Source: Rheinheimera sp.
GTDB lineage: Bacteria > Pseudomonadota > Gammaproteobacteria > Enterobacterales > Alteromonadaceae
Direction: 5' to 3'
NCBI RefSeq assembly: GCF_030690345.1
Contig: NZ_JAUYGV010000007.1
Coordinates: 372,001-436,000, forward strand
Length of the DNA stretch: 64,000 bases
The position numbers and the translations under genes are program-made. Of this stretch, positions 43,867 through 49,440 are shown piece by piece. The stretch's first letter is position 1. Every line of letters starts with the position of its first letter. The notes under the pieces were generated by a model, which was not told the origin of the DNA, ran no database searches, and saw only the letters and a program-made list of their open reading frames with translations.

Positions 43867-44888
43867 CAATTTTGATCACCGGAGGCTGCGGCTTTATCGG
43901 CTCTGCGTTAATTCGTTACCTGCTGCAACACACTGAACATCAGATTATTAACCTCGACAAACTAACTTATGCCGCTAACCCTGCAGCTTTGGCAGCGGTT
44001 GCCGCTAACCCCCGTTACCATTTTAAGCAACTGGATATCTGCGATGCCGCTGCGCTGCAGCAAATATTTACACAGTACCAGCCGCAGGCTGTTATGCACC
44101 TGGCGGCAGAGAGCCATGTTGACCGTTCAATCGCCGGTGCTGCCGGTTTTATCGAGACTAATATTAACGGTACTTTTCAGCTGTTAGAAGTAAGCCGTCA
44201 CTACCAGCAACAGCTGCCGGAACTGCAAAGACAACAGTTTCGCTTTTTGCATATTTCTACCGACGAAGTGTACGGCGATCTGGCCACAGCGGACGCGCCG
44301 GCATTTACCGAGCAAACCCATTATGCGCCCAGCAGCCCTTACGCTGCCAGTAAAGCGGCCAGCGATCATCTGGTACGCGCTTGGCACCGCACCTATGGTT
44401 TACCGGTCATTATTACTAATTGCTCAAACAATTACGGCCCCTGGCAGCATGCGGAAAAGCTGATCCCCAATACCATCAGCAAGGCGCTAAGCGGGCAGCC
44501 AATACCGGTATATGGCAATGGCAAACAAATCCGCGATTGGCTGTATGTAGAAGATCATGTACGGGCGTTATGGCAGGTACTAAACCGGGGAGAAGTTGGC
44601 CAAAGTTATAATATCGGCGGCAATAGCGAACAACAAAATATAGAAGTGGTTAAGACCATCTGCGAACTACTGGATGAACTAGCCCCGATGCATAAACGCG
44701 GTTACCCACTAAACACCAAACACTCATCACTCATCACTTACGTAACGGATCGCCCCGGCCACGATCTGCGCTATGCGATAAACAGCAGTAAAATTCAAAC
44801 TGCGCTACAGTGGCAGCCACAACATAACTTTGCAGTTGGGCTGCGTAATACTGTGCTGTGGTACTTACAACATGCGGGTTCGTTGTGA
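43863..44888 (+). CDS. rfbB: dTDP-glucose 4,6-dehydratase RfbB/RmlB
   Basis: Converts dTDP-glucose to dTDP-4-keto-6-deoxyglucose. Start ATG 43863 overlaps the rfbD stop as ATGA and gives [20 protein letters not shown]. Motifs [12 protein letters not shown], the active-site [10 protein letters not shown] and [17 protein letters not shown], and [17 protein letters not shown] are diagnostic. rfbA, which makes dTDP-glucose, is not present in the window. Confidence 0.95.
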
Positions 44889-45409
44889 ATTCAGCCGACA
44901 ACCAATGGTACTTGCTGTACTGCAAACCCCGGCAGGAGCTACGGGCACAACAGCAGTTGGCCAATCAGGGCTACAACTCATTTTTACCGCAAATATCACT
45001 GCAAAAACTGCGTGGCAATAAATGGCAGCAGGTTACTGAGCCCCTGTTTCCGCGTTATCTGTTTTTATATCTGCCGCCAGGGCAGGAGCTGAATATCAGC
45101 GTCATTCGTTCAACCCGTGGCATTAGCGACTTTGTCCGCTTTGGCGCGCAGTTGGCCCGGGTGCCTTCTGAGCTGATCCAATTGCTGACAGAACAACAAA
45201 TAGCACTAAAGCAACATCCAAAAGACAACCGGCTGAAAAAAGGCGATGAAGTAAGCATAATTAATGGCCCGTTCAGTGGGCTACAGGCATTGTTCGATAC
45301 CGCTGAGGGCAACAAGCGCAGCATTGTTCTGATCAGTATGCTGGGGCAGTGGGTAGAAGCTGTGGTAGACAACAAGCAAATTATGGCGAAAAAAAATGCA
45401 AACACTTAG
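44885..45409 (+). CDS. rfaH: Transcription antiterminator RfaH (NusG paralogue)
   Basis: 174-residue NusG-family factor that loads at ops pause sites and makes RNA polymerase resist termination in long surface-polysaccharide operons. I chose GTG 44885, overlapping the rfbB stop as GTGA, because the protein then begins near [20 protein letters not shown], the NGN domain start; longer forms add residues translated from rfbB. The NGN domain continues through [11 protein letters not shown] and [12 protein letters not shown]. The C-terminal KOW region has [16 protein letters not shown]. The presence of an ops element just downstream supports RfaH over a generic NusG-like protein. Confidence 0.9.
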
Positions 45410-45544: not shown

Positions 45545-45580
45545 CATTAGGGTGCTGTAACCTAATGGCGGTAGCGTGCT
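45545..45580 (+). promoter_or_regulatory. ops element with upstream hairpin (JUMPStart-like)
   Basis: GGCGGTAGCGTG at 45567-45578 is identical to the core of the E. coli ops sequence recognised by RfaH. Directly before it is a perfect inverted repeat CATTAGG / CCTAATG (45545-45551 and 45561-45567) with a nine-base loop, so the layout resembles the JUMPStart sequence of enterobacterial capsule and O-antigen operons. It lies in the leader of the Wza-like gene, on the coding strand, about 160 bases after the rfaH stop. It should recruit RfaH to the long downstream operon. Confidence 0.88.
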
Positions 45581-45654
45581 TAAACGGCCATTTCAACGTC
45601 GATATAAACGAATAATAAAGCTGTTTGGATCACTAACAACACTGGAGTTTGCGG

Positions 45655-48306
45655 GTGCTTAAATTTGTAAAACGTCTCTTACTAACGCTAACGGTCAGCA
45701 TGGCTGCCCTGGCACCTTTAGCGGCAGTTGCTCAGGCCATATCGCCGGCAATGCTGGAGCAATTCAAATCATTACCGCGCGCAGAGCAAGAGCGTTTGGC
45801 AAAACAGTACGGCTACACTTTGCCACGCTCCTCCGGTAGCGGTAGCAGCAGTGCGGATGCCGGAGCAACAGAGGCAGAACAGGACAAACTGGAACCGCTG
45901 GTGCCACCTGAACAAACCGATGAAGTTAGGTTTAATGCAGAAGAGCCAACCAAACCAAACCGCTTTGGTTTAGCTATGTTTAGCAGCAACAGCAGTAATT
46001 TCTCTCAGCTTAGCAATACCCCTGTACCGGCCGATTATAAACTGGGCGCGGCCGACAGCTTATTATTACAACTATACGGCAAAGAAAGCACAGACTATGA
46101 GCTGGTTATTGCTAACGATGGCAGCCTGGCAATACCGGATATCGGCCCTTTGCAACTGGCCGGCCTTACGTTCGACAAAGCGGCTAACCTAATCCGTGAG
46201 CGGGTAAAAGCCGCTAAAATTGGTGTTGATGCAGCAGTTAGTATGGGCAAGCTGCGCACTATAAACGTCATTATTGCCGGTGAGGCGAAACGGCCCGGCA
46301 TTTATACCGTATCAGCCTTAACCACAGTAACCCAGGCATTATTTATCGCCGGCGGTGTATCTGATATCGGCAGTTTGCGTGACATCAGCGTTAATCGCGC
46401 CGGTAAAAACGCGGCACGCTTCGATTTGTATCAGTTATTACTCAAAGGGGATGCCAGTGGCGATATTAATCTGCGTCACGGCGATGTGGTGTTTGTTGCA
46501 CCTGTTACAGCTATGGCAGAAGTAAAAGGTGAAGTGCAACGCCCGGCTATTTATGAATTGGCAACAGGTGAAACCTTGTTGTCACTGTTACAAATGGCCG
46601 GTGGCGCCAAAGCCGGCGCTTATCCTAAATCTGCTGTGCTGGAGCGGTTTAACCAGCAGAATCTGCGTGATTTACAAAATCTTGACCTGACACAACCGAC
46701 AGCGCAGCAACTTGAGGTACGTAATGGCGATGTGCTGACTGTGGCGGCAACATCCCCGCGCATCGAAAATGTTATCACTGTGGCGGGTGTTGTTGTGCGT
46801 CCGGGCCAATATGCCTGGCATGCGGGTATCAAAGTGTCGGACATCTTGCCATCAATATGGTCGGCTTTGCATTTAGCAGCAGATTTGGAATACGCCATTA
46901 TTGTGCGAGAAACCAGTAACAGCGGTAATATTGAGGTTATTCAGTTTAATTTGGCAGACGCCATCACATCCCCGGACAGCGCAGCTAATCACCGGCTGGC
47001 ACCGCGCGATATGCTGATTGTTTTTCCGCACGGTGATAACAGCTATCAGCGCGAGCTGTTATATACCGAGCTGAAAAAGAAGACCGAAATCAGTGTATTT
47101 GATGAACAAGCCACAGCGCTTAAAGAGACAATATTTGGCTTTGTTACGCCGGAGCAGGAAAAGCAAATTGGCTATCATCTGCAGCAGACAGTAGATAATG
47201 CTTATATCAATAAAGAGCTGTTACCATTAACAGTGCATTTTAGCCGTGAAGAGTTGCTAAAACCGATAATTCAGCAGTTAGAGCAACAAGCCCGCTATAA
47301 CAAGCAACCGCAAGTAGCTACTGTCAGTGGTAATGTTAAAGTGCCTGGCATTTATCCACTGGCGGCAAATGCCACCGTATCCTCATTAATCAATGCAGCT
47401 GGGGGCTTGGCGCAATCGGCGTTTGCCAGCCATGCCGAATTAACCCGTGCCGAACCGGACAGCAGTGGCAACGTACAAACCCGGCATTTGGCTATTAATC
47501 TGAACGAAGTGTTCAGCAATAATAACGATATGCTGTTGCAAAGCCGCGATAACCTTAATGTATTTGAAACGCCGGATTGGAATGTTGAGCGCACTATTAC
47601 CTTGAAAGGCGAAGTGCGCTTTCCTGGGGTGTATAGCATTCAGCAAAATGAATCGCTGAACGACATTATAACGCGCGCCGGTGGTTTAACCGAGCAGGCT
47701 TTTGTTAAAGGTGTAGTTTATACGCGGTTGGGTGTGCAGGAACAAGAAGCCGAGCAGCAGAAAAAACTGATTGAGCAGTTAAGAGCAGACATCGCCGGCC
47801 GCGCGCTGTCTGCACAGGGCTCACCAACAGCACCGGCAGACGTTATAACGATGATCAAAGAACTGGAAAAACAAAAGCCGGTTGGCCGCTTAGTTATCGA
47901 TCTTGAGGCTATTATCAGTGGTAATCCGCTGCACCATATCCAGGTACAAAATGGCGATGAACTGCTTATCCCCAGGCGCAATAATACCATCTCTATTTTG
48001 GGCGAAGTGCAGCATGCCAGCAGCCACCGCTTCGATGCTAAATTGTCATTGGACGATTACTTAAAACTGGCCGGCGGCATGCGTAAACGTGCCGACGATG
48101 AGCGGGTCTATGTTATCCGTGCCGACGGCTCGGTAATGGTGCCTGAAAGCAAGTGGTTTGCCGTATCAAAATCCAGCCTGCAGCCTGGTGATACCATCAT
48201 AGTGCCGCTGGATACTGAATATAAAGACAACATTACCTTGTGGGCGCAAATTACGCAGATTTTCTACCAGTCTGCTGTGACCATAGCCGCGCTTAATGCA
48301 ATTTAA
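45655..48306 (+). CDS. Wza-like polysaccharide export protein with multiple SLBB domains
   Basis: Outer-membrane/periplasmic polysaccharide export protein. Start GTG 45655 has GGAG seven bases upstream; a TTG six bases earlier is too close to it. Signal peptide ends near VAQA. The Poly_export domain (PADYKLGAADSLLLQLYG) is followed by several SLBB beta-grasp repeats (e.g. EAKRPGIYTVSALTTVTQAL, GNVKVPGIYPLAANATVSSL and GEVRFPGVYSIQQNESLNDI). A C-terminal hydrophobic helix (VTIAALNAI region) ends the protein. At 883 residues it is far longer than E. coli Wza (~380), as in the multi-SLBB exporters of marine gammaproteobacteria. No wzb/wzc is nearby. Confidence 0.9.
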   Translation: MLKFVKRLLLTLTVSMAALAPLAAVAQAISPAMLEQFKSLPRAEQERLAKQYGYTLPRSSGSGSSSADAGATEAEQDKLEPLVPPEQTDEVRFNAEEPTKPNRFGLAMFSSNSSNFSQLSNTPVPADYKLGAADSLLLQLYGKESTDYELVIANDGSLAIPDIGPLQLAGLTFDKAANLIRERVKAAKIGVDAAVSMGKLRTINVIIAGEAKRPGIYTVSALTTVTQALFIAGGVSDIGSLRDISVNRAGKNAARFDLYQLLLKGDASGDINLRHGDVVFVAPVTAMAEVKGEVQRPAIYELATGETLLSLLQMAGGAKAGAYPKSAVLERFNQQNLRDLQNLDLTQPTAQQLEVRNGDVLTVAATSPRIENVITVAGVVVRPGQYAWHAGIKVSDILPSIWSALHLAADLEYAIIVRETSNSGNIEVIQFNLADAITSPDSAANHRLAPRDMLIVFPHGDNSYQRELLYTELKKKTEISVFDEQATALKETIFGFVTPEQEKQIGYHLQQTVDNAYINKELLPLTVHFSREELLKPIIQQLEQQARYNKQPQVATVSGNVKVPGIYPLAANATVSSLINAAGGLAQSAFASHAELTRAEPDSSGNVQTRHLAINLNEVFSNNNDMLLQSRDNLNVFETPDWNVERTITLKGEVRFPGVYSIQQNESLNDIITRAGGLTEQAFVKGVVYTRLGVQEQEAEQQKKLIEQLRADIAGRALSAQGSPTAPADVITMIKELEKQKPVGRLVIDLEAIISGNPLHHIQVQNGDELLIPRRNNTISILGEVQHASSHRFDAKLSLDDYLKLAGGMRKRADDERVYVIRADGSVMVPESKWFAVSKSSLQPGDTIIVPLDTEYKDNITLWAQITQIFYQSAVTIAALNAI

Positions 48307-48315
48307 TCAGAAGCG

Positions 48316-48472
48316 GTGACGAGCTGCTCAAGCAGCAGTAACGAGTTACTCGTCACCAGTTACCGCTTCCACAGGAAGCTAGTGACTGCCGTTAAAAAGT
48401 TACCGTTGCCGCAGGCAACTAGTGACCGCCGGTTATACCGGCTGGTTACCGCTCGCAAAGCGAGCTAGTCAC
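48316..48472. repeat. Array of covarying palindromic hairpins between wza-like and wzz genes
   Basis: Three 28-base units (48359-48386, 48399-48426, 48445-48472) share the plan GTTACC + arm + 3-base loop + complementary arm + TAGTSAC. The six-base arms differ, GCTTCC/GGAAGC, GTTGCC/GGCAAC and GCTCGC/GCGAGC, but always pair. A fourth, 27-base unit at 48316-48342 is the same plan in inverted orientation, with a 5-bp inner arm pair CTGCT/AGCAG. A further hairpin, GCCGGT/ACCGGC, lies at 48428-48442. Almost the whole 180-base gap is thus structured. It resembles REP/BIME-type palindromic elements, but I do not recognise the family. Confidence 0.8.
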
Positions 48473-48486
48473 CTCAAAGGATGTAT

Positions 48487-49440
48487 ATGTCTCAACAACA
48501 TGTTGCCCAACCCCGGCAGCCAGCCGATGACGAAATAGACTTACGAGATCTGTTCGCTGTTATCTGGCAGGGGAAATGGATTATTATCGCTACAACTTTT
48601 GTATTTGCTGTAGCGTCAGTGTTTTATGCCTTAAGCCTGCCAAATATTTATAAAAGCGAAGCGTTGCTGGCACCCGCAGCTGAGCAAAAAAGTGGAGGTT
48701 TATCTGGCCAGTTAGGTGGTTTAGCTGCCTTGGCTGGCGTAAGCTTAGGCGGTGGGGCCAGCGTGGATAAAACTGCATTGGCTCTTGAAGTGATAAAGTC
48801 GCGCGATTTTTTAGGCCGTTTTATCGAAACGCGTATTCAACTTCATGATCTAATGGCAGCAGAAAACTGGGATCTGAACAGCAACAGAATTCACTACAAC
48901 GAAGAAATTTACGATCCGCAGACGCAGCAATGGCAGCGCGATGCTAAGCCTCCAAAGCAGGCCAAGCCTTCAATTCAGGAAGCGTATAAGGTCTTATCTG
49001 AAAAGCTGAATGTGAGCAAAGATGCAACAACAGGAATGGTTAAGATAAGTTTCGAGCATGTATCGCCATTTGTTGCAAGAAGTTGGGTACAAATGCTTAT
49101 AGCTGACCTAAACGTGGAAATGAAAAACCGTGACATTGAAGAAGCTGAAAAAAGTATTTCTTACCTACAAAAGCAAATAAGTCAGACCAATATTGCCGAT
49201 TTGCGAACAGCACTTTTCTCGCTAATAGAAGAACAAACGAAAACGCTGATGCTTGCTAATGTTCGTGATGAATATGCATTTAAGACTATTGATCGTGCTA
49301 TTGTTCCTGAAGAGAAATCATCTCCCCAAAGGGCTCTTATAGTCCTACTAATTACTTTCGTCGGAGGTTTTATGGCAACTATTTTTGTCTTGGTATCAAA
49401 TATCTTTAAAAGAAATTCAGGGGCAACTAAGAATGTCTGA
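48487..49440 (+). CDS. wzz: Wzz-family polysaccharide chain-length determinant
   Basis: Polysaccharide co-polymerase that sets O-antigen/capsule chain length. ATG 48487 has AAAGG six bases upstream and is preferred to ATG 48481. It has two membrane helices, one N-terminal (GKWIIIATTFVFAVASVFYA) and one C-terminal (ALIVLLITFVGGFMATIFVL), and a periplasmic coiled domain between. The Pro-containing region before the second helix (PEEKSSPQRALI) is typical. No tyrosine-kinase domain is fused. Its 3' half is visibly more AT-rich than its 5' half. Confidence 0.9.
   Translation: MSQQHVAQPRQPADDEIDLRDLFAVIWQGKWIIIATTFVFAVASVFYALSLPNIYKSEALLAPAAEQKSGGLSGQLGGLAALAGVSLGGGASVDKTALALEVIKSRDFLGRFIETRIQLHDLMAAENWDLNSNRIHYNEEIYDPQTQQWQRDAKPPKQAKPSIQEAYKVLSEKLNVSKDATTGMVKISFEHVSPFVARSWVQMLIADLNVEMKNRDIEEAEKSISYLQKQISQTNIADLRTALFSLIEEQTKTLMLANVRDEYAFKTIDRAIVPEEKSSPQRALIVLLITFVGGFMATIFVLVSNIFKRNSGATKNV

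Follow-up and report, generated by a model that had tools for sequence, protein, structure and literature searches.

The gap between a wza-like and a wzz-like gene of a Rheinheimera sp. is filled by an array of short palindromic boxes and hairpins that is probably a solo repeat arm, without a gene, of an IVP-type intercistronic element; the heptamer flanks of such elements would here take a form that bears hairpins. An IVP-type element, as we propose it, would consist of a small four-helix-bundle gene (PF05635, also called S23p or IVP) lying beside or between arrays of 7-nt repeats, which are often inverted. The evidence comes from the build of the array, from related arrays that flank PF05635 genes in other genomes, and from 7-nt repeats found beside IVP genes at large.

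Anatomy and operon setting of the array

The window, a stretch of 64,000 nucleotides of the Rheinheimera genome G000, carries the array on the + strand at 48316-48472. It comprises ten GTNAC boxes and five hairpin units, begins 9 nt past the wza stop, reaches into the wzz ribosome-binding region and so fills the gap of 48307-48480. From left to right there are an inverted unit (48316-48342, minus strand, reading GTTAC-T-GCTGCT-TG-AGCAGC-TC-GTCAC); four bare GTNAC boxes at 7-nt spacing, without hairpins (48338-48363; GTAACGA GTTACTC GTCACCA GTTAC); a + unit with arms GCTTCC/GGAAGC (48359-48386); a 12-nt spacer, TGCCGTTAAAAA, which is found in genome G045 too (48387-48398); and three more + units, with arms GTTGCC/GGCAAC (48399-48426), GCCGGT/ACCGGC (48422-48449) and GCTCGC/GCGAGC (48445-48472), the last of which forms the right end of the array (CTAGTCAC). 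The four + units and the one inverted unit follow a single plan: GTNAC, C or T, a six-base arm, a three-base loop (two bases in the inverted unit), the complementary arm, T plus one base, and GTNAC. The junction of 1 nt on one side and 2 nt on the other is kept. Boxes are shared between neighbouring units; their distance is 23 nt where a hairpin intervenes and 7 nt where none does. The spacings of the ten boxes are 22, 7, 7, 7, 23, 17, 23, 23 and 23, the 22-nt span being the inverted unit and the 17-nt step the one further exception. As the GCCGGT/ACCGGC unit shares boxes with both of its neighbours, the unit step is 23 nt. The first-pass annotation had given the place and the sequences of the array correctly; its four units become five, since what it set apart as another perfect hairpin is the full unit at 48422-48449. 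It had missed that the regular element is the GTNAC box, that boxes recur at a 7-nt period, and that there is a link with IVP genes.

Five exact units were found in the window compared with none in ten Markov-1 resamples of the 64 kb, and these exact matches are the array itself. A loose form of the pattern (up to three mismatches) gave no excess over the whole window, with 20 matches against 17.6 expected. No Rfam family matched the window at gathering score, and 48307-48480 holds no open reading frame of at least 100 amino acids, i.e., no IVP gene lies inside this copy. Unit and spacing statistics were collected for 31 arrays with 141 units, including L153, which is half of a duplicated pair and was dropped from all counts based on 30 arrays. 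Across array-bearing loci, GTNAC spacings peak at 23 nt (113/199), with 7 nt next (22/199).

The genes around the array all lie on the + strand. They are rfaH (44858-45409; NCBIfam TIGR01955, over cut-off), a wza-like gene for a polysaccharide export protein (45649-48306, with its stop at 48306; SLBB and Poly_export) and a wzz-like gene for a chain length determinant (48481-49440, starting at 48481 or 48487; PF02706). Between rfaH and wza, an exact copy of the ops motif, GGCGGTAGCGT, lies at 45567-45577 on the same strand; the search gave this one exact match, and allowing up to one mismatch gave 10 matches versus 5.2 expected. The motif is quoted as GGCGGTAG in the part of PMC3438125 consulted. 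The position of this exact site supports a putative RfaH-controlled operon, as the first-pass annotation had supposed. With an RfaH protein and an exact ops site at hand, the array is likely to be cotranscribed with wza and wzz, and some effect of the array on the mRNA is therefore likely too.

Pairing of the arms and conservation of the boxes

A set of 14 typed units from three genomes, picked by eye, gave a covariation score of 0.41 compared with 0.16 in shuffles, while neither both-side pair changes (34 of 500 shuffles as high) nor pair types (339 of 500) went beyond shuffles. Because this set had been chosen by eye, we repeated the test on GTNAC box pairs that lie 23 nt apart in array-bearing loci, with pairing not required. 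All six arm pairs were present in 107 of 129 such box pairs, and in 0-5 when the partner arm was slid. Four hairpins of the same gap are orthologous between G000 and G045; 2 of their 24 stem pairs differ, both in a compensatory manner, as do 6 of 12 loop bases. The earlier claim that pairing persists while the arms vary is thus upheld by both comparisons and, to judge from the sequences, arm conservation is one of pairing rather than of sequence. Standard pairs occur at the box centre in 8 of the 14 units of the small typed set; among 115 units the centre is mostly unpaired, C/C and T/C being the commonest combinations. With no pairing maintained at their centre, the boxes appear to be conserved as sequence, and only the arms as pairing.

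The array folds strongly both as RNA (z -5.9) and as DNA (z -4.9), with 0 of 200 shuffles as stable in either case. By eye, a hairpin of G045 has its counterpart in bare 7-nt boxes of G000, which indicates that the two forms interchange. Avoidance of equal arms within one array was not significant (P 0.08 without L155, 0.44 with it).

Distribution of the arrays and their link to IVP genes and heptads

A covariance model gave matches in 11 of 31 Rheinheimera genomes and no second array in the genome of the window, in searches that scored 150 of some thousands of candidates per genome and may miss weak arrays. The suggestion in the first-pass annotation that such a search could reveal further copies thus held for relatives and failed for the array's own genome. 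In nine of the 11 genomes the matches are confined to a single stretch no longer than 27 kb, which in seven (G000, G002, G004, G019, G022, G041 and G045) lies within about 41 kb of wzz; in G018 and G020 the matches are scattered over several places of the chromosome. Among 25 Rheinheimera wza-wzz gaps (23 with genome handles, plus L040 and L042), five contain an array of two or more units and eight are just 8-15 nt long. By eye, the gap of G024 bears an apparent scar of a right array end, and those of G009 and G014 hold degenerate array remains. Over 394 genomes of the order, the covariance model (strict filters, 19 scored candidates in each genome) picked out G000 and G045 alone. A fixed pattern run over 365 genomes, 3 of them Rheinheimera, matched 12, and its reversed control matched many genomes too; arms were paired only in G000 and G045, the ten others having one or two matches each with arms unpaired by eye. 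Plasmids and phages gave no match to the array.

Inverted units come first and direct units after in 20 of 31 arrays, one array has the reverse junction, and 10 have a single orientation. The outermost box, read outward, is GTCAC at the left end of 22, at the right end of 20 and at both ends of 15 of 30 arrays. Arrays lie in 24 codirectional, 6 convergent and 0 divergent gaps (n=30), compared with 109 codirectional, 6 convergent and 16 divergent for the other neighbouring gene pairs of the same loci. The median distance to the nearest stop codon is 27 nt; for 11 of 30 arrays the codon is no more than 15 nt away.

The link to IVP genes emerged from Shewanella. In many members of this genus the wza-wzz gap is 240 to 2605 nt long, and hairpin arrays with boxes of CTAG plus 3 nt or ACGGAACG surround a small gene with an NIAEG motif (14 of 17 printed gaps, by eye), which looks interrupted in two of the 14 (by eye). 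A scan of 80 wzz loci found an intact IVP-motif gene just upstream of wzz in 14, all Shewanella, and one placed elsewhere in L071; all five of the Shewanella IVP-motif genes that were tested belong to PF05635. From these gaps we predicted that the small genes between the arrays of G004 and G041 would be of the same family. Indeed, in both genomes GTNAC arrays directly flank a PF05635 gene on both sides (E 4e-38 and 9e-39; four helix bundle protein, TIGR02436). In the wza-wzz gap of a Shewanella MAG (L045), a repeat-flanked nucleotidyltransferase-like gene and a second small gene, possibly an MNT/HEPN pair, are seen by eye in the place of the IVP gene.

PF05635 matches occur in 10 of the 31 Rheinheimera genomes (that of G019 is a fragment): in 7 of 11 with arrays and 3 of 20 others, a difference (Fisher P 0.013) that serves only as a guide among related genomes. 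Two of these three others, G009 and G024, are ones with array remains. Against the reading as an IVP-type element, GTNAC arrays flank only 2 of the 10 Rheinheimera IVP loci, and no PF05635 match was obtained in four of the array genomes (G010, G018, G022 and G046). A further point against it is the IVP gene of the window genome itself. This gene (L198; G000:C8:436888-437208) is intact and lies 0.9 kb past the end of the window and about 15 kb downstream of wzz, with sugar transferase and beta-CASP nuclease genes as neighbours; it shares 25-27% identity with the array-type IVPs, and its heptads are different ones, inverted on the two sides (GTNNTGA-like on the left, CTCAACA-like on the right). 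Similar heptad flanks were seen by eye in G002, G024, G045, G017 and G020. The sugar transferase/beta-CASP gap is occupied in G041 as well as in G000 by IVP genes that are only 25% alike and have different repeats, which suggests, from the two sequences, a turnover of elements at one site. Furthermore, no array was seen to have moved. Identical arrays at two places were found only once, in a 4-kb segment of G020 that is present twice with 99.4% identity (L153, at the start of C1; L158, C1:2462543-2466547); this may be a real duplication or an assembly overlap, and transposition of the two arrays is ruled out, both being inside the duplicated segment. Nor do we know of a nuclease or integrase in IVP-type elements, which likewise counts against the reading.

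IVP genes are found in other surroundings too: between cysD- and cysN-like genes (PF01507 and an EF-Tu-type GTPase at L225; others by eye), between cas6 and cas4, between cas10 and cmr3, and, on the opposite strand, between ribonucleotide reductase genes. Polysaccharide operons are therefore one IVP setting among several.

IVP genes elsewhere are bordered by different repeats, whose period is again often 7 nt. From each search the 30 IVP loci with the best scores were tested; many are related, some in each set coming from one genus, so that the counts that follow are not independent. For 40 distinct IVP genes (best 90-nt stretch of 200-nt flanks; repeated proteins and loci with less than 150 nt of flank dropped), mean lag-7 identity was 0.44 upstream and 0.45 downstream, compared with 0.28-0.32 at lags 4-6 and 8-12 and 0.33 for control genes. 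It reached at least 0.5 in a flank of 16 of the 40 and of 2 of 63 control genes at the same loci. At further loci from other families of the phylum (28 usable of 30, with one short flank and one motif not found; 90-nt stretches of 200-nt flanks; 6 control genes), lag 7 was the best of lags 4-12 in 22 of 28 and identity was at least 0.5 in 8 of 28. At plasmid loci, mostly of Cyanobacteriota (14 hand-picked of 27 records; 60-nt stretches of 120-nt flanks; gene ends of L291 and L292 estimated), it was the best of nine lags in 11 of 14. The loci where lag 7 was not best are L241, L246, L247, L260, L262, L263, L281, L287 and L291, four of which show lag 8. Upstream and downstream flanks exceed the cross-locus 95th percentile as inverted copies of each other in 34 of 56 loci and as direct copies in 20; the inverted-flank score is 17.2 within a locus and 9.5 between loci; L236, with GGCAGTA...TACTGCC around its IVP gene, is an example. 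The flanks of GTNAC arrays have a weaker lag-7 excess (0.33 versus 0.26-0.27), mainly in G018 and G020. The arrays L149-L158 of these two genomes pass straight into 7-nt repeats (e.g., GTGGTGA GTGTTTA and CTCAACA) that are apparently in phase with the boxes.

The part of PMC4990558 consulted describes heptameric repeats, two or three in tandem, ahead of the S23p gene of the Coxiella 23S intervening sequence (IVS), and states that PF05635/S23p proteins have no known function. According to the passages seen of PMC4692102, heptameric repeats are over-represented in bacteria, have received little literature and have been ascribed to polymerase slippage as the sole idea offered. A general link between PF05635 and heptameric repeats was not found in the literature searched, where the Coxiella passage concerns one gene and which mostly leaves out subscription journals, so that absence is unproven. 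With IVP genes and heptads side by side in Pseudomonadota and in cyanobacterial plasmids, both questions become testable by one binding experiment. The covarying hairpin arrays offer a second handle, as they show which positions are fixed (boxes and junction) and which need only pairing.

Proposed origin, alternatives and relation to known systems

We propose that the Rheinheimera heptad would be the palindromic box GTNAC plus 2 nt, with a hairpin of variable stem inserted after most boxes to give the 23-nt unit. The window copy would derive from an IVP-type element, as a non-autonomous copy or remnant, and would persist mainly as a selfish or near-neutral sequence with local effects on mRNA. 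For arrays placed downstream of stop codons in operons or between convergent genes, transcription and tolerance would be expected. As to mechanism, the model that we think most likely is that each subunit of an IVP ring would take up one heptad while the hairpins loop out, which would leave the boxes nearly in register; once its 15-base hairpin is taken away, a unit has box starts 8 nt apart, nearly the 7 nt of bare boxes. The solved IVP relatives 2gsc and 2rld have five chains each. TRAP, which reads spaced triplets, provides an analogy for a ring that reads heptads. In the passage seen of PMC4990558, a Xanthomonas IVP relative is described as a toroidal homopentamer. A broader claim, which we advance tentatively and consider less likely than not, is that IVP/S23p rings and heptameric repeats could be one widespread system. 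The pentamer would read 7-nt repeats, in either RNA or single-stranded DNA, with each subunit taking one heptad, and the arrays of Rheinheimera and Shewanella would be the variant with looped-out hairpins. If true, this would explain the function of PF05635 and many bacterial heptamer repeats.

Alternatively, the array could be a cis-acting RNA device that caps the wza mRNA, slows or insulates wzz translation, or attenuates the RfaH-controlled operon. The strong fold, the pairing kept between orthologues and the presence of RfaH and ops all agree with such a role, as does an unrelated hairpin in the same gap of several array-free relatives (e.g., L009, L019, L020 and L021, by eye); the part of PMC3438125 consulted reports a predicted stem-loop attenuator between wzc and wbaP of a Klebsiella cps cluster. 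We nevertheless consider this unlikely, given that so few Rheinheimera wza-wzz gaps have arrays of at least two units and eight gaps have barely any length, that G018 and G020 carry arrays at several chromosome places and that units occur in both orientations. Moreover, a terminator scan of 48200-48600 returned one site, on the antisense strand only; the sense strand gave no intrinsic terminator, in which a T run would follow a G+C-rich stem. Mutation alone, with slippage producing tandem units and template switching at quasi-palindromes producing perfect stems, would need neither selection nor a partner protein, and would suit the tandem triplication of a three-hairpin block at L155 and the near-identical blocks in neighbouring gaps of G010 (L146). 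It would not account for boxes and the 1-nt/2-nt junction that stay fixed while arms and loops vary, for the absence of arrays from most Rheinheimera genomes or for the association with IVP, and is in our judgement very unlikely.

The first-pass annotation had also raised a REP/BIME-type element with a transposase partner. Mobilization of such a family by a RAYT (a Y1 transposase) appears highly improbable, although several traits of the arrays are REP/BIME-like: short extragenic palindromes in inverted pairs and clusters, ends able to supply stop codons, and no divergent gap among 30 arrays. Y1 genes are common (matches in 27 of 31 Rheinheimera genomes), and three RAYT-type genes lie 1.4 kb (L160), 1.6 kb (L155) and 2.2 kb (L150) from arrays, a proximity that also counts against the IVP-type reading. 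Yet at none of the 43 loci read, of 58 Y1 hits, was a RAYT gene bracketed by GTNAC units or a unit present within about 1.5 kb, so that neither the element with its own RAYT nor the suggested transposase partner was borne out. The RAYT-like genes of L155 (560-1350) and L160 (2100-2960) have flanking repeats of their own, GGATCTGACCCC-like and GGGGTCAGAGTGA-like (short repeats GGATCTGACCCC and GGGGTCAGAGTGATTT, respectively); G045 has arrays and no Y1 match; and the stems vary with the boxes alone fixed. A GTAG or CGTC tag at the hairpin foot was absent from 115 units, where the feet are GTNAC-Y (G in 3/115) and mostly T-N-GTNAC. An integron attC site was rejected as well: attC core boxes are GTTRRRY / RYYYAAC, and the base after GTNAC is C or T in 112 of 115 units.

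The array, read as an IVP-type element, can be compared with known systems. The arrays are like REP/BIME sequences with their RAYT (PMC3733652, in the part consulted) in being extragenic palindromes, inverted or clustered, downstream of genes and with stop-codon ends; they differ in stem sequences that are not conserved and in boxes shared at 23 and 7 nt, and the likeness in position and layout thus comes without two defining features, the bracketed RAYT and the foot tag. The cps stem-loop attenuators, as described in the section seen of PMC3438125, are alike in that a stem-loop lies between genes of an ops/RfaH polysaccharide operon, but they are single hairpins rather than arrays, and the sense strand here has no terminator-like site. 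The heptameric repeats of Xanthomonas, Nostoc and Beggiatoaceae are likewise 7-nt and intergenic, with a cause described as not established; in contrast to the arrays, they have no hairpin inserts in the passages seen of PMC4692102 and PMC4679880, whose main texts have 0 occurrences of "four helix" and "23S rRNA". The 23S rRNA IVS with its S23p/IVP gene is similar in that inverted repeats enclose a PF05635 gene at a transcribed site and that, in the Coxiella passage of PMC4990558, heptamers precede the S23p gene; the Rheinheimera array differs in lying between protein genes, in its many short hairpins and shared GTNAC boxes and, in the window copy, in being without the gene. Since the family's repeats are common to IVP elements but the gene is absent from this copy, we assign it to the class of IVP elements as a solo array, with moderate confidence.
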